Virus record (IMG/VR): IMGVR_UViG_3300033150_002936 | Coordinates: 1 to 34,296 of that record | Length of the DNA: 34,296 nucleotides | Strand: one strand, 5' to 3' | DNA from: a virus | In this document: in pieces, positions 18,285 to 27,113 of the stretch | How the letters are laid out: every line of letters begins with the position of its first letter | How positions within the stretch are numbered: the stretch's first letter is position 1 | Translations under genes and position numbers: made by a program | The notes under the pieces: generated by a model | Databases searched by the model: none | What the model saw: only the letters and a program-made list of their open reading frames with translations | What the model was told of the DNA's origin: nothing

Positions 18285-18596
18285 ATGATAACACTTTTAA
18301 TTATTCTTTTTGTAATTTCTTTAATTGTTTCAATTACTTCTTTTGTTATTAGTTTATCATTATATATTAAATTTGCATCATTAGAAAAATCAATTCTTGA
18401 CAATTTTCAACTTATTCAAAAAGTAAATGATTTAGCTCTTGGAAATATGGGGGCAATTAATCAGTTGTTTGAATTATTAAAATATAAAATAAATTCTATT
18501 GTTCAAAATCTTTTTAATTTCATAAGTGGAGAAGGAGATTTCTCCTTAACTTCTTTCTCTAAAAAGAAAAAGAAGAAAAAAAATGAAGTTAATTGA
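18285..18596 (+). CDS. Small membrane protein with lysine-rich tail
   Basis: The 103-residue protein begins with one long hydrophobic segment (residues 2-30, LLIILFVISLIVSITSFVIS in its core). A helical region follows, then a C-terminus with eight nearly continuous lysines (FSKKKKKKKNEVN). The design suggests an inner-membrane anchor with an exposed basic tail; it has no cleavage site typical of a secreted protein. The ribosome site AAGGAGAA is strong. It is the first gene of the plus-strand island, facing away from the tail module. Possible roles include a membrane-acting early protein, a spanin/holin-like factor or an exclusion protein; the sequence does not decide. Confidence 0.65.
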   Translation: MITLLIILFVISLIVSITSFVISLSLYIKFASLEKSILDNFQLIQKVNDLALGNMGAINQLFELLKYKINSIVQNLFNFISGEGDFSLTSFSKKKKKKKNEVN

Positions 18597-18607
18597 GGAA
18601 ATGAAAA

Positions 18608-19666
18608 ATGATAAAAATTAAAAAAAGAAAAGAAATATTAAATGTTAAATCTTTTATAGAGAAAAAAATTAATAAACTAATTAAAAAAGATGAAAAATTA
18701 ATTTTTCTAACTCTTTTCGGTTCTCATCTTTACGGAACTGCTACAAAAACATCAGATATAGATATTAAAGGAATTTTTCTTCCAAGCAAAAGAGATTTAA
18801 TTCTTAATAAAGCTTCTCATCATAAAAATTTTTCTACAAATACAGTAGATAAAAACACAAAAGAAGATGTTGATATAGAACTTTTTTCTATTCATAAATT
18901 TTTAGAAAAAATCTGCGCAGGAGATGCTGTTAACACAGATTTGTTTTTTGCTTTATTTTCAAGCTTTGCTTCTCTTGATTCTTTTTCTTTATATAAAAAT
19001 GAAAAAATCTGCAAGAAGATATTAGAAATTAAAGATTTTATTATTTCAACCAATATGAGAGGATATGTCGGTTTTTCTTTGTCTCAAATTCGCAGATATT
19101 CTCAAAAATCCGAAAAAGCATTTGTATTAAAAGAATTTATAAAAATATTAAATTCTCTTGATGGTGTAGATTTTGAAAAAATTGAAAATCTTCCTTATAA
19201 AAAATGGATTTATTGTCTTAAAACTACTTATCCTCAAATTAAAGAATATATCAATGAGAGAAAAATAAACGGAAGAATTTATATAGAAATTACTTCTAAA
19301 AAATATGATACAAATATTCGCTTAAAAGATTTTAAAATTTTAATTAACGATTTATATAACCGATTTGGGGAAAGAGCAAAGAAAAATATTACAGACTGGA
19401 AAAGTTTAACGCACGGATATAGAACAGTATGGCAATGTCTTTATATCTTGCAAAACAAACATCTTTTATTTCCTTTGCCAAAGAAAGTTTGTTCCCATCT
19501 TCTAATGATAAAAAACGGAAAAATTTCTAAAGAGAAAGTTGTCTCAGAAATAGAAAAAATAATTGAAAAAATAGACAAAATAATAGAAACTCGCAAATAC
19601 AAAATTGCAAAAAAACCAAAAATTTCAAAAGTAGAAGAATTAATTATAAAATTATATGAACATTAA
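18608..19666 (+). CDS. RlaP/YcgL-type nucleotidyltransferase (DNA polymerase beta superfamily)
   Basis: Residues 34-60 read LTLFGSHLYGTATKTSDIDI then KGIFLPS. The GS at 38-39 and the acidic pair D50/D52 are the metal-binding nucleotidyltransferase core, and GSHxYG...SDxDxKG is the signature of the COG3541/RlaP family. Members are thought to act in RNA repair or nucleotide transfer to RNA. A third acidic residue is probably in the stretch EDVDIELFSIHKF (near 80-92). The 352-residue length is usual. The remainder is helical and basic. The start ATG follows GAGG by about 9 bases. It overlaps the next gene by 11 bases, so the two are coupled. Confidence 0.8.
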   Translation: MIKIKKRKEILNVKSFIEKKINKLIKKDEKLIFLTLFGSHLYGTATKTSDIDIKGIFLPSKRDLILNKASHHKNFSTNTVDKNTKEDVDIELFSIHKFLEKICAGDAVNTDLFFALFSSFASLDSFSLYKNEKICKKILEIKDFIISTNMRGYVGFSLSQIRRYSQKSEKAFVLKEFIKILNSLDGVDFEKIENLPYKKWIYCLKTTYPQIKEYINERKINGRIYIEITSKKYDTNIRLKDFKILINDLYNRFGERAKKNITDWKSLTHGYRTVWQCLYILQNKHLLFPLPKKVCSHLLMIKNGKISKEKVVSEIEKIIEKIDKIIETRKYKIAKKPKISKVEELIIKLYEH

Positions 19667-20324
19667 TGTTGTAGAAAATGATGAGAGTTTTTTGAAACTT
19701 TTTGCTGAAAGAAAATTCTCCAGTTTAACAAAGAAAGAGAAAGAAGAATTAAATCAAAGAGTTAAAAAAGACATTTGTGAAATAATAAATGCTTATTTTT
19801 CTGCCTATGAGAAAAACTGGTTTTCTATGAATGTAAGAATTGGGAAAAATCTTCATTATTTTCGAGCATTTTGTAAAAAAGTTATTAGTCAAATTCCTCA
19901 ATTATTTTCTATTAAGATTCCTCAAACAAGATTTATAGACAGTTATCTTATAGTAAAAAATAAATTGATATGTTTTACAGAACACATATATAGATATAAT
20001 ATACTTTCCTATTCTCAAGCAAATATATTTTTGGGTATATTAGTTTCCCATTTTCTGGTAAGAGATAATTATGGAAATGCTAAATTAGAATATTCATTAT
20101 TTCCATATATTCCTGAAGATGATTTTTTAATCTACAAAATGTATAATAATTTTTTTATTGAACTTGTTAAACCCAACCCGCCAAAATTTTCTTCTTTTAA
20201 TCTTTCGTTTATTATTAAAACTATAAACTTCTTTCTTTATAATGGGTTTATTACTTTTAAAGATTTTATGGAAACTGGCAGACTAATACAAGATTTAATT
20301 GGATTGGGCAAAGAAATAATTTGA
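19656..20324 (+). CDS. Uncharacterised protein in the RlaP operon
   Basis: I do not recognise this 222-residue protein. It is rich in Phe, Ile, Asn and Tyr, with an N-terminal charged helix (about 20-50) and hydrophobic stretches such as YSQANIFLGILVSHFLV (about 122-138). None is long enough to be a clear membrane segment. It overlaps the nucleotidyltransferase gene by 11 bases at its start, suggesting shared translation and perhaps shared function. Its TGA stop is embedded in the -35-like TTGATT of the next candidate promoter. Other proteins of the family, if any, were not recognised. Confidence 0.6.
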   Translation: MNINVVENDESFLKLFAERKFSSLTKKEKEELNQRVKKDICEIINAYFSAYEKNWFSMNVRIGKNLHYFRAFCKKVISQIPQLFSIKIPQTRFIDSYLIVKNKLICFTEHIYRYNILSYSQANIFLGILVSHFLVRDNYGNAKLEYSLFPYIPEDDFLIYKMYNNFFIELVKPNPPKFSSFNLSFIIKTINFFLYNGFITFKDFMETGRLIQDLIGLGKEII

Positions 20325-20348
20325 TTTTCTTTTGCATTTTTCTATCTT
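20321..20348 (+). promoter_or_regulatory. Candidate promoter TTGATT-N16-TATCTT
   Basis: TTGATT at 20321-20326 and TATCTT at 20343-20348 are separated by 16 bases and sit 36 bases before the start at 20384. The same architecture with a shared GATTTTCTTTTGCAT core occurs at 22532-22559. The TTGATT includes the TGA stop of the gene before. Two near-identical copies at the same distance from a start make a promoter likely. Confidence 0.55.
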
Positions 20349-20383
20349 CTTCTACAGAAGAATTTCTAAAAAGGAATTTTAAA

Positions 20384-21817
20384 ATGAAAGCAAATAAAAT
20401 AAAAGAACAATTGGTCTTTATAAAAAATGATGAACAATATGAGAAATTAAAAAATAATGAATTATTTATTTCTGCAATTAAGAAATTAGAAAAATATCAT
20501 TATAATCTGAAAGTTTTAGATAAAAAAGAGCAGATGAGTATTTTGTCTTCTTTTAGAAAAATTAATGAAATAGTTAGAAATTACAAACTTGTAAAAGAAA
20601 AAATTGCTTATGGCGGTTCTCATTGTGATTTATGTGGAATAGAAATTATTTATGAATTTTACCTTCAAAATATTCATACAAAAAAACAAATTAAAGTTGG
20701 CTCGGAATGTATAATAAAATATCCAGTGAGAGTGAAAAATTATGATACATTAGAAGAGATAAAAAGATATATTTTAAGTAGAAAGCAAGAGATGACAGTT
20801 GTTTATAGATGGTATCTCTGGGAACAAACTCCTGAATATAAAAATTTAGATTTAGTTCAAAGATATTATTCTTTTCTTTCTTCTTTATGGAGAAATATTG
20901 ATTCTTACATTATAATAATTAAAGAAAAAGGATATACACTTGAAGAAATGGAAAGGATTCTAATTTCACATCTTATTTCAAATAATTACGAAACCAGAAA
21001 GATATTTGAAAAAGATTTTCCAAAAGTTGTTAGAGTTTTAAATCATTGGTCATCAGATAAAAAAAGAAAAGAAGAAGCAATTAATAGAATAATTGCTAAA
21101 TTAAAAGAAGATAATATTTCAAAGACACACAAATTTAACTTGTTCTATCCTTACAAAAAAGATTATAAGAAAATTTCTTTTGAAATATATCAAAATAATA
21201 TATCTTTATCAATTAAATGGGAAAATATAGAAAAAGAGACAATAAAAGAAAACCTTTGTTTCTCTTATTGGGATTTAATTGGCAAAAAAATTTATAATAG
21301 TTTAAAAACTATAAATTGGAAAATTAAAAATCTTGAAAAAGACAGAGACATTAATAAAATTCCACACATTAAAAAAATGGCAAGGATAATCCTAAAAAAT
21401 AAAGAAACAATTAATAAAATTATGTGCCTGATTTATTCTCACTATTTATCATTATACAACAATTTAATGGAAATTTTGCCAGAATTAGAAAAAGAAGAAA
21501 TTGAAAGAGAAAAGAAAAGACAAGAGAAAATATTACAAGAAATATCAAAAGAAGCGAAAGATAGAAAATGTGGTGTCTTAAAATTAGATAATGTTTACAT
21601 AGATAAAATTAAAAAAGAAGAAATAAGATATTCTAAAGAATATGAAACTTATAAAGCAATACTAATTAAAAAATATTTTATAGAAAAAAATTACTCAGTC
21701 TCTATCTGGTTGCCAAAATCTCAAATCAGAGAATATCCTGAATATAATGTGGTTTTAGTTCCTTATTGGCTTTTAAAGAAAAATGGAATAAGTTTAGAAC
21801 TGGCAAGAGAAAAATAA
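20384..21817 (+). CDS. Uncharacterised zinc-ribbon-like protein
   Basis: The 477-residue protein has HCDLCGIEIIYEFYLQN near 80-96 and VGSEC near 105-109. The spacing C81-x2-C84...C109 with preceding H80 resembles a 'CxxCG...vG..C' zinc module found in uncharacterised phage proteins. Residues about 230-400 are basic helices, and the stretch 370-410 is strongly charged coiled coil with ELEKEEIEREKKRQEKI. A reading frame begins with TTG at 20321, but I choose ATG at 20384. It has an AAAAGGAA ribosome site, and the 21 extra residues read like the promoter region. Zinc and nucleic-acid binding are inferred. Confidence 0.6.
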   Translation: MKANKIKEQLVFIKNDEQYEKLKNNELFISAIKKLEKYHYNLKVLDKKEQMSILSSFRKINEIVRNYKLVKEKIAYGGSHCDLCGIEIIYEFYLQNIHTKKQIKVGSECIIKYPVRVKNYDTLEEIKRYILSRKQEMTVVYRWYLWEQTPEYKNLDLVQRYYSFLSSLWRNIDSYIIIIKEKGYTLEEMERILISHLISNNYETRKIFEKDFPKVVRVLNHWSSDKKRKEEAINRIIAKLKEDNISKTHKFNLFYPYKKDYKKISFEIYQNNISLSIKWENIEKETIKENLCFSYWDLIGKKIYNSLKTINWKIKNLEKDRDINKIPHIKKMARIILKNKETINKIMCLIYSHYLSLYNNLMEILPELEKEEIEREKKRQEKILQEISKEAKDRKCGVLKLDNVYIDKIKKEEIRYSKEYETYKAILIKKYFIEKNYSVSIWLPKSQIREYPEYNVVLVPYWLLKKNGISLELAREK

Positions 21818-21818
21818 A

Positions 21819-22535
21819 ATGTCAAGTCTTAACAAAATATTACTATCCACTCTTATAAGAAACCTTTTTAATTATTACAAATCAATCGGAAGAGATATTA
21901 AAAAGAATGAGGAAAAAATCTGCATTTATATAAATTTAACATCACTTTTTTTGAAAAGAGTTAAAGAAAATGATTATAATTTCCTTGCAGAAATGATAAT
22001 GAAAGATATTATTTTTACTATACAATCTTATTTAAAAAAATATATAGATGATAAATATATTTTACAGGAAATAATTGACAAAACTTTTTTTATAGATGAA
22101 AAAGATATTAGCGATTTTTTAAAAAACAATCTTTTGCCTTTCAAAAGATTTTATTTCTATTATCAATATGACGAACATTCTTCTTTCGCCATAAAAAATC
22201 TGTTAATTTGTCGGAGATTTAAAAAAGAATTTGGCACAAATGACAATAAATATTATTTTGGGGGAATTCTTCAAAAAAAACTTCTTGAGGATTGGGGGTT
22301 TAAATATAAGTCTGTTTATAATAAAATACTAAATATTATTTTTGCGGAAGAATCAAACAAGAAAAAATCAATTCCTCAACATCTTTCTTTTAAAGAAATT
22401 ATATCATTAATCAAAAACGAAAACTCAAAAATTTTATCCGATAAAGAAAAAGAAGAAATGATTAAAGATTTAAAAGAAAATTATAGAGTATTTGATTTTA
22501 AAAAATTTGTTTTCGGAATTTTAGAGAACTATTGA
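21819..22535 (+). CDS. Uncharacterised helical protein
   Basis: The product has 238 residues, mostly helical, with no motif I recognise. It begins MSSLNKILLSTLIRNLFNYY and ends with a Lys/Glu-rich helix then FDFKKFVFGILENY. The start ATG is one base after the TAA of the preceding gene, so the pair is probably translationally coupled; the ribosome site is poor. Its TGA stop is embedded in the TTGATT of the next promoter. Codon use and composition are the same as its neighbours. No function can be proposed. Confidence 0.6.
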   Translation: MSSLNKILLSTLIRNLFNYYKSIGRDIKKNEEKICIYINLTSLFLKRVKENDYNFLAEMIMKDIIFTIQSYLKKYIDDKYILQEIIDKTFFIDEKDISDFLKNNLLPFKRFYFYYQYDEHSSFAIKNLLICRRFKKEFGTNDNKYYFGGILQKKLLEDWGFKYKSVYNKILNIIFAEESNKKKSIPQHLSFKEIISLIKNENSKILSDKEKEEMIKDLKENYRVFDFKKFVFGILENY

Positions 22536-22559
22536 TTTTCTTTTGCATTTTTTTATATT
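22532..22559 (+). promoter_or_regulatory. Candidate promoter TTGATT-N16-TATATT
   Basis: TTGATT at 22532-22537, 16 bases, then TATATT at 22554-22559, 39 bases before the AAA+ ATPase start. The spacer shares TTCTTTTGCATTTTT with the promoter at 20321. Close match to a sigma70-type promoter. The TGA of the previous gene lies in the -35 box. Confidence 0.6.
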
Positions 22560-22597
22560 TAATTGAATAAATTTTTAAAAGAAAGGAAAGAAAAAAA

Positions 22598-23851
22598 ATG
22601 AAAGAAAACTATCCTGTCTTAACCGTAAATGAATTAAAGGAAGTTTTAAAGAAATATTTTATAAATCCAAATTTGCCCCAAACAGAAACTCAGACAATTC
22701 CTTTAATTTGGGGTCTTCCTGGCATTGGGAAATCTTACATTATTTACGAAATTGCAAAAGAATTAAATGGAATAGTAATTCCTTATTTTGCATCGGGAGA
22801 AGATGAAACAGAGATAAGGGGAATTCCTGTTCCAGTAGAAAAAGAAAATGTTGTAAAATATATGCCATTAGAACACCAGAAATTTCCCAAAGATAAAATA
22901 GTAATTTGGTTCTGGGATGAAATAAATAGAGCCAGACCAGAAGTTATTCAGGCATTGTTTTCTATTCTCTCAACTTTTCCAAGAAGAATAGGAACACATA
23001 TAATTCCGCCAAATGTTTATATAGTATTATCTGCAAACGAGGGAGACGCTGATAGCACTCTTGTTACAGATTTTAACGACGCGAGTTTTTACAATAAACT
23101 TTCTCATATAAAAGTAAAGTTTAACAAAAAAGAATATTTAAGCTATCTCTCAATGAAATATAACTTACTTGATACAAAATCTAAAAAGACAAATCTTCAA
23201 ATAGCAGCAGAAAGAGTGGTTAATTTTCTTTCTTATAGAAACCAGAGCGATTTTCTGACTATACCTGATAATCCTTCCCGAAAAAAGTCCTATCCAACAC
23301 CAAGGACAATTGAAAGATTTATTCTTACATTTAGAGACCCTATCGCAAAATACAATCCCAATTCTTCTGATAGTGAAAAAATAAAAGAAGAAATTCTATT
23401 AGGAGCTTGTTTGGTGGGAAATAGCTGGGTTGCAGATTTTACAATTTGGATGAAAGAGAATTTAAATAAAAGCAGAGATGATATAAATATTTACGATATT
23501 TATAACAATTCATTAGATGACGATAATATATTCAATGAACTACAGGAAAGAATTAAAAAACTTGATTCTGATAGAGTATTAAAATTGTCTGCTGAAATAA
23601 AAGATTTATTTAATGATGAAGAATATGACGATTTAAGAAAAAACATAGATGAGAGAAAGCTATTAGTTTTCGCCAAGATAATTAATAGACTTCCTCTTGA
23701 TAGCAAGAAAGGATTGATTACCGAATTGGTAGAAATCCCACAGTTTGTAAATATTTCTGATGAATTAAGCTCTGATAAAGATTCAGAGCTTGCAAAATTG
23801 TTGGAAAGTTTTATACAAATTTTAACTCCTGTCAGCGAAAGTAATTCTTAA
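22598..23851 (+). CDS. MoxR-type AAA+ ATPase
   Basis: The 417-residue protein has Walker A GLPGIGKS at 39-46 and Walker B IVIWFWDEIN at 101-110 (D107, E108). A sensor-1-like NEG lies in VLSANEGDAD near 144-151, and 'F...NPSRKKSYPTPRTIERF' forms a later arginine-rich segment. This is the MoxR/RavA-type core that powers remodelling of partner proteins, usually together with a VWA-domain protein. Here such a VWA gene lies 1.2 kb downstream in the same operon. The ribosome site is GAAAGGAAAG. The C-terminal 120 residues are acidic helices. The partner substrate is unknown. Confidence 0.88.
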   Translation: MKENYPVLTVNELKEVLKKYFINPNLPQTETQTIPLIWGLPGIGKSYIIYEIAKELNGIVIPYFASGEDETEIRGIPVPVEKENVVKYMPLEHQKFPKDKIVIWFWDEINRARPEVIQALFSILSTFPRRIGTHIIPPNVYIVLSANEGDADSTLVTDFNDASFYNKLSHIKVKFNKKEYLSYLSMKYNLLDTKSKKTNLQIAAERVVNFLSYRNQSDFLTIPDNPSRKKSYPTPRTIERFILTFRDPIAKYNPNSSDSEKIKEEILLGACLVGNSWVADFTIWMKENLNKSRDDINIYDIYNNSLDDDNIFNELQERIKKLDSDRVLKLSAEIKDLFNDEEYDDLRKNIDERKLLVFAKIINRLPLDSKKGLITELVEIPQFVNISDELSSDKDSELAKLLESFIQILTPVSESNS

Positions 23852-23889
23852 AAAGACAGAAAATTATTAAAGAAAGGAGATAAAAAATT

Positions 23890-24372
23890 ATGAAAAAAGA
23901 AAAATTCAAAACACACGGAAAAAATAGAGAAATGTTAAAGAAATTAAAAAAAGATTTAAAAGAAACAATAGAAGAATTTTTAACAACTAAAAATGAAAAA
24001 AGAAAAGAAGAATTAAAGGAAAAGATTGGCAAATTGTTTTTAAAATTATCTGAATTGGCAACTATTAGATACAATTGGAACAAATATAATACCTATGCCA
24101 GATATGTAGATGTCGATGATATAAAGGGAGAGGTGGCTCTGGGATTGTGGACAATTATTGCAGAAAAGAAATTTGATTTGAAAAGATTGAAGACAGAAAA
24201 TTCCATTTATAACTTTTTAATGATGTCTGCAAATAATTTGGCAAAATATCAAATAAGAAAAATATTGACAAAAGAAAATAAAATTAGATTTATTTCTCTG
24301 GAAAGATTTAAAGAAATTTATCCCAATGGGTTTAAATGCACAGATATTTTTACACGAGAAGAATTTTCTTGA
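23890..24372 (+). CDS. Putative late sigma factor, T4 gp55-like (region-2-like)
   Basis: The 160-residue protein begins with a Lys/Glu coiled coil (1-50). It then shows the region-2-like core: YNWNKYNTY near 61-69, DVDDIKGEVALGLWTIIAE near 74-92, KKFDLKRLKTENSIYNFLMM near 93-112, and LAKYQIRKILTKEN to 130. T4 gp55 has the same order: aromatic/basic start, acidic 'D.i.dg', then 'FD..k..N...Y......af..rI.ke'. gp55 directs host RNA polymerase to TATAAATA late promoters. No region 4 is present, as in gp55. An AAAGGAGAT ribosome site precedes the start. It lies between the AAA+ and VWA genes. The call is by motif order and is not certain. Confidence 0.65.
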   Translation: MKKEKFKTHGKNREMLKKLKKDLKETIEEFLTTKNEKRKEELKEKIGKLFLKLSELATIRYNWNKYNTYARYVDVDDIKGEVALGLWTIIAEKKFDLKRLKTENSIYNFLMMSANNLAKYQIRKILTKENKIRFISLERFKEIYPNGFKCTDIFTREEFS

Positions 24373-24401
24373 TTTTAAATTGCAATTTATTTTTTTTTTT
24401 A
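24369..24401 (+). other. AT-palindrome and T11 run with promoter-like TTGATT
   Basis: TTGATT at 24369-24374 contains the TGA stop of the sigma-like gene, as at the other two sites. It is followed by the perfect palindrome TAAATTGCAATTTA (24376-24389) and a run of 11 T. No -10 box of the other promoters is present. It could be a weak terminator, an operator, or a decayed promoter 30-60 bases before the VWA gene. Confidence 0.35.
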
Positions 24402-24432
24402 AACAAAAAAGGAAGAGAAGAAAGGAAGAAAA

Positions 24433-25971
24433 ATGAAGAAAAAGAGAGAAAAGATAGATATTAAATCAGCAGAACAAAAATTAGAAAAAAATCTTGAAGA
24501 ACTTAGACAATGCTTCCGCAGCTTTAGAAGATTTACAAGAAATTGGGTATTTGAAGTTCAGCCCTTGCCATTAGGGAGATATGCAGGAGTTAAAAGAGAA
24601 AAAAATAGAGATGGAAAATGGAAAAACAATATAGTTGTGTATTTAACTCCGCAAGCACTAAAGGAATGTTCAAATGCAGAAATAAAAGGATTTTTAATTC
24701 ACGAAATTTTACATATCTACAATAAACACTTTGAAAGAGAAGAAAAAAATATTAAAGACGTTTCCGTTGCTATTCCAGAGATTGGAGTTTATCCTTCTCT
24801 TTGGAATGTTGCAACTGACCTTGCAATAAATTATATAATTCAACATCATTTTAAAACTTCAACTTCTAATTCTAAATGCAAAATAAAATTACATAAAAAT
24901 TCTCTTACAACAAGTCTTTTTCCTCAACATATCAGAGAAAAAATAGAAGATAAAGATGCCGAATATATTTTTGATGTTTTGAAAAAAGAATATGAGAAAG
25001 ATACCGAGAAATTTAAGAAAATGCTAAAAGATATTATAAAACAAATGATTAAAAATGGTTTTAATCCATCAGGGACGGGAAGTGGAAAAGGAGAAAAGGA
25101 TGATGAAAATAACAATGAAGAAGGAATACCTGTTCCTGTTAATATTAATTTTGACGACCATTCTGAAGTGATGGATATTGAATTAACGCCTGAAGAACAA
25201 AGAAAAATAGAAAAAGAAATGGAGAAAAAATCTAATACATTTGGAAATTCCTATGGAGATAGAGATGGCGAAGAAGAAAATGGCAATGAGATGAATGGCG
25301 GTTGGGCACACAATACTAATCCTGACCCTCTCAAATATAGCATAAATAAATTTTATGTTAAATATAAGAGACATTTAAAAACAAAGAAAATCCTTAAATC
25401 AATAAGGTCAACTCTTACTTCTCACTCATCAAGCCTTATTCCTACCATTCGCTATAATTATAAAAGAGTAAACAGAAAAAAAGATTATTTTAGAAGAAAA
25501 TATGGAACTATATATAAAGGAAAAAATAAAATCTTTAAAGCAAATGATTTGATAGTTGCTATTGACACATCAGGCTCTGTTTCAAACATAGAAATAAAAA
25601 TGGCATTAGAAATTATTAGAGGATTTATAGAAGATTGGAAAGTAAACATCTACTTAATCCAAGCTGATGATTATGTTAGAGATGTTCAATATATCACAAA
25701 AAGTTTTACAGATATTGATATAAAAGGGAGAGGGTGCACAAATTATCAACCTGTTTTTGATTATGTTAAAAAGAATTTTATAGATAAAGGCGAAAATCCT
25801 CGTCAAATTTTATTGGTATATATCGGAGATGGAGAAACAAGTTATGAGATAGAAAATTATGGAATAAATACTCTTTGGTTATTTGTTCCCACTTATGACG
25901 AAGAATTTTATGATAATATTTTTGGGCAAAAATATATAATTCCTTTTAATAGCGAAAATTTCGATAATTAA
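24433..25971 (+). CDS. VWA protein with N-terminal metallopeptidase-like domain (DUF2201 type)
   Basis: Residues 90-99 read HEILHIYNKH, an HExxH zinc site with a third His at 99. WNVATDLAINYI near 124-135 is the accompanying helix. The middle is acidic and Gly/Asn-rich (about 210-300). The VWA domain starts near residue 372 with DTSGS (D378, S380, S382), the metal-ion-dependent adhesion site. GRGCTNYQPVF and YIGDGETSY provide the later metal-site residues. This domain order matches the DUF2201 family, commonly partnered with MoxR ATPases, and a MoxR gene is in this operon. Its stop overlaps that of the convergent gene at 25968. Catalytic activity of the metallopeptidase part is possible but unproven. 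Confidence 0.85.
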   Translation: MKKKREKIDIKSAEQKLEKNLEELRQCFRSFRRFTRNWVFEVQPLPLGRYAGVKREKNRDGKWKNNIVVYLTPQALKECSNAEIKGFLIHEILHIYNKHFEREEKNIKDVSVAIPEIGVYPSLWNVATDLAINYIIQHHFKTSTSNSKCKIKLHKNSLTTSLFPQHIREKIEDKDAEYIFDVLKKEYEKDTEKFKKMLKDIIKQMIKNGFNPSGTGSGKGEKDDENNNEEGIPVPVNINFDDHSEVMDIELTPEEQRKIEKEMEKKSNTFGNSYGDRDGEEENGNEMNGGWAHNTNPDPLKYSINKFYVKYKRHLKTKKILKSIRSTLTSHSSSLIPTIRYNYKRVNRKKDYFRRKYGTIYKGKNKIFKANDLIVAIDTSGSVSNIEIKMALEIIRGFIEDWKVNIYLIQADDYVRDVQYITKSFTDIDIKGRGCTNYQPVFDYVKKNFIDKGENPRQILLVYIGDGETSYEIENYGINTLWLFVPTYDEEFYDNIFGQKYIIPFNSENFDN

Positions 25972-27113
25972 TAACTAATAAAATTTCGTTCCTTTAAATT
26001 TTCATAATCATTTAATATTTCTTCCGAACTTAATGCTTTTCCATATATTCGCAAATTTGACATCAAACCCTTATAGAAATATATATCACTACCGCTTTCT
26101 TCTCCTTTTCCTATTGAAAAACTTTCTGAATTTTGGATATTAAAAGAAGGCAAAGAATTTGAAGAGAGAGAAATTTCTTGGGCATTTTTATATAAAGAAA
26201 TTTTGCTTTCTTCTTTACTGCACACTAAAGATAAATAAATCCACTCATTGTTAGAAAAAAACGGTTGTAATGTCTCATATATATTTCCGTTTATTTCAAT
26301 TCTAATTCTATTATCATCTAACATAGTAATCTTAAAATCTTCTCCTTTTCTTATAATAGATTGATTTATTCCTTGACTAATATCTGGTTTTAAAAAGATA
26401 TTAAAAGAAAAAGAATTTGTTCCAAAATTATAATTATTTCCGAAATCTAAAAAATTATCAATTCCATTAAAAGCCCCCACTTCTATTTCATCATAATAAT
26501 CTCCATATTGCCAAAAATAATCTATATCTCCATTTATTTTATATGTTCGTTGTTCTAAATAAGCCTCTCTATCTTGTAAAAATTCTGTTTTCCAATGTTC
26601 AGAGAAAGGAATCCAAGTCATAATTTTATCTAATGTAAGATATGGTGGAATTACTAAACCACTTAATTCTTTTTTAACTGCTATAATCATCCATTGAACA
26701 TTTTTGAAAAGTCTTTCCCCTGCTGGATTGGGATAAGTATTCATTACAACATAAATTTGATGTCTTTGATGTGGTGGTTGAATTAAATCATATATCTGAA
26801 GAGGTCTTCCCAATTTTTCAATCATTTCTGATGTGTCAAAATATACAGAAATTTGTTCGGGCATATCTAATCCCATTTTAACCAATTCCTGGACCAAAGT
26901 GGGATTCTCAAAAAATCCTCTTAATTCCTTCCCCCTATCATATAATTTTTCTGTATATTCTCCATATATATTATCTGCTGAAAGTTGTTCATTTTCTGGT
27001 TTTAAAGGATAAATTATTAAAGGAGCAGAAGATAATTTTAGTATTTCTTTGTGGTGAAGCACAATTTTATCAAGGTCATTTTTCCAATTTCCATAAGCTC
27101 CCACTAATGACAT
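25968..27113 (-). CDS. Neck/head-completion-like protein fused to a LamG lectin domain
   Basis: The 381-residue protein has two parts. The first 200 residues include YFDTSEMIEKLGRPLQIYDL and HQIYVVMNTYPNPAGE, a 'GRp..iyDli......y.V..v.P' pattern as in phage head-closure/neck proteins. The second (about 210-375) is a concanavalin-like LamG jelly roll with NFGTNSFSFNIFLKP, IIRKGEDFKITM, EWIYLSLVCSKEES, ISLYKNAQEI and YFYKGLMSNLRIYGKALSSE. This is typical of a sugar-binding beta sandwich on the virion surface. It lies two genes downstream of the gp13-like gene, where T4 has gp14. Convergent with the VWA gene. The lectin call is solid, the neck call is inferred. Confidence 0.6.
   Translation of the reverse strand: MSLVGAYGNWKNDLDKIVLHHKEILKLSSAPLIIYPLKPENEQLSADNIYGEYTEKLYDRGKELRGFFENPTLVQELVKMGLDMPEQISVYFDTSEMIEKLGRPLQIYDLIQPPHQRHQIYVVMNTYPNPAGERLFKNVQWMIIAVKKELSGLVIPPYLTLDKIMTWIPFSEHWKTEFLQDREAYLEQRTYKINGDIDYFWQYGDYYDEIEVGAFNGIDNFLDFGNNYNFGTNSFSFNIFLKPDISQGINQSIIRKGEDFKITMLDDNRIRIEINGNIYETLQPFFSNNEWIYLSLVCSKEESKISLYKNAQEISLSSNSLPSFNIQNSESFSIGKGEESGSDIYFYKGLMSNLRIYGKALSSEEILNDYENLKERNFISY

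Follow-up and report, generated by a model that had tools for sequence, protein, structure and literature searches.

Do a MoxR-type ATPase, a sigma-like protein and a VWA protein with a metallopeptidase site, encoded one after another in a viral operon, constitute a single machine, or do separate functional units share the operon? The DNA analyzed here (the window) is the whole of one IMG/VR viral record, 34,296 bases long with a GC content of ∼28%, and its source is a poorly known tailed phage. The recognisable protein families of the minus strand are contractile-tail proteins (sheath, tube, tape measure and baseplate wedge) and a head-tail adaptor-like protein. Between the minus-strand blocks sits a plus-strand block (18285-25971), on the strand opposite to the flanking tail genes. 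The first-pass annotation had placed the three genes in one same-strand operon; this arrangement was confirmed, and the operon proved to be longer, with eight genes and an extent of at least 18285-25971. The gaps are 38 bp between the ATPase and sigma-like genes and 60 bp between the sigma-like and VWA genes, a ribosome-binding-site-like sequence precedes each of the three open reading frames, and no convincing terminator or promoter that would split the three genes was found. Among the upstream products, those of 103, 222, 498 and 238 residues are hypothetical proteins; the remaining gene (18608-19666, plus strand) encodes an RlaP/T4 nrdC.11-like nucleotidyltransferase (PHROG 388, E = 6.5e-53). 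Adjoining the operon, the minus-strand gene at 25968-27113 encodes a product whose C-terminal domain is concanavalin-like (lectin); it may be an attachment protein of the virion.

Table 1. Features of the plus-strand operon. Coordinates refer to the window.
Feature	Coordinates	Strand	Residues	Basis
Five upstream operon genes (103 aa, nucleotidyltransferase, 222 aa, 498 aa, 238 aa)	18285..22535	+		
MoxR-type AAA+ ATPase, 417 aa	22598..23851	+		PHROG 1297, Pfam AAA_5
Walker A motif GLPGIGKS	22712..22735	+	39-46	sequence
Walker B acidic pair (WFWDE)	22916..22921	+	D107-E108	sequence
Very likely gp55-type sigma factor, 160 aa, sigma-2-like region only	23890..24372	+		profiles, PHROG 234
Sigma region 2-like stretch (approximate bounds)	24019..24276	+	∼44-129	profile and inspection by eye
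DUF2201 protein, 512 aa: N-terminal predicted metallopeptidase and C-terminal VWA domain	24433..25971	+		PF13203, PF09967, PHROG 1314
HEILHIYNKH with zinc-binding HExxH (HEILH, 90-94)	24700..24729	+	90-99	conservation, minigluzincin match
VWA MIDAS motif DTSGS	25564..25578	+	378-382	conservation, VWA fold

The VWA protein scored 35.0 bits against PF13203 (cut-off 23.2) and 37.1 bits against PF09967 (cut-off 26.4), and a match to PHROG 1314 covered nearly its entire length (E = 4e-33). With both domains in one protein and the HExxH and MIDAS motifs intact, it belongs to the DUF2201 metallopeptidase-VWA proteins (COG3864), in agreement with its first description as a VWA/metallopeptidase. Among 115 family members, the MIDAS residues D378, S380, S382, T436 and D466 were each retained in at least 111. 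In the peptidase domain, H90 and H94 were each found in 112 of the 115, E91 in 110 and Asp129 in 112, and N125 was nearly invariant; some of the loci had been retrieved with patterns requiring HE..H or WN.A.D, and the conservation of those columns thus partly reflects how the loci were chosen. An AlphaFold model computed from 39 sequences reached a pLDDT of 68.8 overall and of ∼80-95 for the greater part of each domain. Its C-terminal part aligned with VWA domains at Z scores of ∼11 (11.7), and a chain of the NorQD complex was present among the Foldseek VWA matches. The structural alignments span the VWA part only; the peptidase fold is assigned from sequence and one weak Foldseek match of the model (selecase at rank 21, E = 0.069).

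The first-pass annotation had also pointed to an HExxHxxxxH site. Its HExxH portion is conserved, as described above; a metzincin reading was rejected because the spacing differs from HExxHxxGxxH and the third histidine, H99, varies (present in 102 of the 115 family members). By sequence, the peptidase domain is nearest to the minigluzincins (selecase MJ1213, profile E = 8e-7), followed by M48 peptidases, and on the strength of these relatives the third metal ligand is probably Asp129 rather than H99. We therefore predict a gluzincin-like zinc metallopeptidase; its nearest solved relatives are stand-alone peptidases of ∼110 residues, whereas the domain in the window is fused to a VWA domain. 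The HExxH glutamate is lost in two relatives (98PfluR60PP and MT837836), and peptidase activity would thus not be essential everywhere. Its loss at L006 7209-8432 (HLAMH) and L004 2054-3370 (HMVLH) suggests that some family members no longer cleave. RefSeq calls proteins of this family 'HNH endonuclease', apparently after the name of PHROG 1314; examples are PA5oct gp144 (L136 6001-7185), GAP32_211 (L137 5938-7293) and phiTE_060 (L138 5662-7212). In phiTE, the HNH-like gene phiTE_059 is inserted directly upstream of phiTE_060, and the name may stem from there.

The upstream partner matched PHROG 1297 'ATPase' (E = 1e-32) and scored just over the cut-off of Pfam AAA_5 (22.9 bits; cut-off 22). 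Invariant across the aligned ATPase set are P41, G42, G44 and K45, the acidic pair D107 and E108, the sensor-1 asparagine N147, and R236. The Walker A, Walker B and sensor-1 elements together with the AAA_5 score place the protein among the MoxR AAA+ ATPases, as originally annotated. Its score for the bpMoxR family was 17 bits, under the cut-off of 27, and the nearest PDB sequence was RavA, at an insignificant E value of 0.5. A pattern search with WFWDEINRA returned one chance match, in a contig of 65% GC, and was discarded.

A pair of this type is already known and is ordinary for large phages: it is widespread, occurring in N4-like phages and at more than 90 loci. A 2007 study of phage 0305phi8-36 already named a MoxR-type pair (PMC2147016). 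For the jumbo phages of group 2.2, Iyer et al. (2021) described a MoxR ATPase neighbouring a vWA protein that bears a metallopeptidase at its N-terminus; drawing an analogy to the Acidianus two-tailed virus, they proposed that the pair acts in virion assembly and peptidolytic processing (PMC7824862). The window shares this pair; in contrast to the window, the relatives examined have no sigma gene between the two genes, and the proteins of the window are only ∼20-25% identical to relatives. The gp24-like ATPase and gp25-like protein of N4-like phages (Schitoviridae) likewise form such a pair. In Pseudomonas phage PAP02 (gp12-gp14) the gene order resembles that of the window, but the middle gene, encoding 171 residues between the ATPase and the DUF2201 metallopeptidase-VWA protein, is unrelated to the sigma-like gene. 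The bacterial RavA-ViaA and NorQ-NorD systems also combine a MoxR ATPase with a VWA partner, although they are not phage systems, and their VWA partners are described as lacking a fused HExxH peptidase domain. Bacterial MoxR-vWA ternary systems use a different third component (PMC7159879); with a sigma-like middle gene, the window does not belong to the VMAP, iSTAND, FtsH or beta-propeller types of these conflict systems.

We favour, as the probable reading, a MoxR-VWA chaperone-protease for virion assembly or protein processing that shares one operon with an independent late sigma factor. The reading of the two proteins as an ATPase/VWA remodelling pair is upheld and agrees with the virion-assembly proposal for jumbo phages. 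Alternatively, the pair might target host proteins, in takeover or counter-defence, instead of virion parts, with the sigma gene as a neighbour. The operon is non-structural and contains the nucleotidyltransferase and unknown genes, and in N4 the homologous gp24/gp25 region belongs to the middle genes (PMC4193335), both of which would suit such a role; middle expression as in N4 fits an assembly role only if a structural module is also made at that time. Against host targets stand the published assembly proposal for the phage pair (PMC7824862) and the result that PADLOC returned no defence-system match to the pair, and we consider this alternative rather unlikely.

The 160-residue protein was matched weakly by standard libraries (PHROG 234 'late sigma transcription factor', E = 0.008; TIGR02937, sigma70-ECF, E = 0.068). 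We built a combined profile from 14 phage late sigma factors, comprising eight gp55 proteins and six jumbo-phage late sigmas, which scored the protein at 20.9 bits (E = 6.8e-5), compared with 10.7 bits for the best of 20,000 residue shuffles and 8.4 bits for the next unrelated open reading frame. The gp55-only profile gave E = 0.0046, the profile of the six jumbo-phage sigmas alone lifted the protein only marginally over the shuffles, and a profile of four divergent marine sigma-like proteins did not lift it over them. The profile match covers residues 20-115; the bounds of the region 2-like stretch in Table 1 were extended by eye to IRKI.TKENK. T4 gp55 is a sigma factor pared down to domain 2 (residues ∼42-122; PMC2988020), and the protein in the window agrees with this domain in size and in the part aligned, being likewise very small, confined to sigma region 2 and without region 4. 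The two differ in that they share no pairwise BLAST similarity and in that an LDFLYE-like sliding-clamp motif was not evident, by eye only, in the C-terminus KCTDIFTREEFS of the protein; furthermore, the T4 gp55 gene does not adjoin any MoxR-VWA pair.

Could the protein be some other helical protein with a chance similarity to sigma factors? The weak library matches, BLAST searches without a match to phages or T4 gp55, an hhalign probability of 3.6% for the single sequence against gp55 and a poor single-sequence AlphaFold model (pLDDT 56) point in this direction, but three sources indicate sigma factors, and the combined profile separates the protein clearly from its shuffles. We regard a chance similarity as improbable and a remote gp55-type sigma factor, as the profiles predict, as very likely. 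The original call of a sigma-like protein is thus retained, on the purpose-built profile more than on the standard libraries. The T4-type late promoter TATAAATA was not enriched (11 occurrences in the window against 8.7 expected), with no match upstream of late genes, and a divergent sigma factor may use another sequence; no shared upstream motif tying the sigma factor to the tail genes rose above shuffles. Elsewhere, gp55 late sigma genes of ∼502-504 codons, in Synechococcus phage B23 (gp289; L038 1771-3285) and in the record of L012 (103597-104970), carry an in-frame, intein-looking insert within the sigma-2 region. Four large pair-bearing phage contigs (L141-L144) encode divergent sigma-like proteins of 234-253 residues, far from the pair.

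The gene order was surveyed in 109 IMG/VR loci from motif scans and in annotated phage loci. Both genes of the pair were present in 98 loci; two of these are the window and its copy (L001), which leaves 96 others, and these relatives are non-independent and all distant (∼20-25% identical to the window proteins). The ATPase gene precedes the VWA gene in 91 of the 96, the order also found in the window, and the two are directly adjacent in about half of the surveyed loci. None of the 96 has a sigma gene between the pair, and the combined profile scored only known gp55 genes and the protein of the window. The same holds for L151, in which the pair genes overlap, and for the annotated phages PAP02, 98PfluR60PP, MinM2, PA5oct, GAP32, phiTE, KLEP7 and Phosso. 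Among the relatives examined, the intervening sigma gene is unique to this phage.

What lies between the pair is not conserved. Unrelated genes, among them HNH and homing endonucleases, occupy the space in other phages, and from these sequences it is a permissive, variable insertion site. In 23 loci (L002 5291-6163 and loci within L050-L135) the pair is separated by a recurrent gene of ∼320 codons, the products of ∼290-340 residues being DUF3150-like (DUF3150 in phage MinM2), and this protein may be a true third partner in its branch. In L014, L020, L023 and L026 the MoxR and VWA genes are separated by a cassette of ∼6.6-6.9 kb that encodes, as judged by eye, halogenase-like, acyl-CoA ligase-like, two desaturase-like and ketoacyl-synthase-like proteins. 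A gp55-like sigma factor is encoded in 11 of 48 other records holding the pair or its VWA gene (one of them marginal, E = 0.06), at a distance from the pair of at least ∼34 kb in contig coordinates.

The three-gene order whose conservation the first-pass annotation had named as a check was accordingly absent from all detectable relatives, all of them very distant, and with unconserved content between the pair and a remote sigma gene elsewhere, a three-gene machine is unlikely. Searches with the VWA, MoxR, tail sheath and sigma proteins in viral contigs, and with the VWA protein in genome contigs, yielded no sister virus; the two ATPase/VWA family alignments were too diverse for use as scanning profiles. 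Since no sister genome was found, a link between sigma factor and pair specific to this lineage is possible but unsupported, and a functional link of any kind is a possible, minority view. That the pair assembles, activates or degrades the sigma factor or a sigma-RNA polymerase complex, and so times late transcription, would fit the position of the sigma gene, which lies exactly between the two on one strand and is separated from each by a short gap, and the known maturation of dedicated complexes by MoxR proteins (PMC3893208), but is highly improbable given the 0 of 96 loci, the large distances in the 11 records holding both, and the permissive nature of the site.

Most likely, then, the sigma gene is just an operon neighbour of the pair, and the favoured chaperone-protease and the late sigma factor would be two separate functional units in one early/middle-type operon. 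In the first unit, the MoxR ring would hydrolyse ATP, the MIDAS metal site of the VWA domain would bind a peptide or partner, which the domain would couple to the ring, and the gluzincin-like zinc peptidase domain would clip the substrate after remodelling. The substrate would most likely be a virion protein of the tail or head, acted on while virions are being assembled, in line with the proposal for jumbo phages. In the second unit, the small gp55-type sigma factor would bind the host RNA polymerase by its sigma-2 region and send it to late promoters, among them probably the promoters of the surrounding minus-strand tail genes. The late sigma gene would have come to occupy the variable slot between the pair genes.

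That the MoxR/VWA-peptidase pair in this lineage controls the late sigma factor, by releasing, activating or destroying it, is in our estimate highly improbable. If true, an ATP-driven protease checkpoint would be coupled to late transcription, and the phage would have its own counterpart of regulated sigma proteolysis. Large and N4-like phages commonly carry the pair itself; yet, as far as we found, it is experimentally unstudied, and no published experiment on the substrate or activity of any phage pair member came to light. Many public genomes name its peptidase-VWA protein 'HNH endonuclease'. Recognition of the variable middle slot, and of a near-unrecognisable, very likely gp55-type sigma factor hidden there, aids the annotation of divergent phages.
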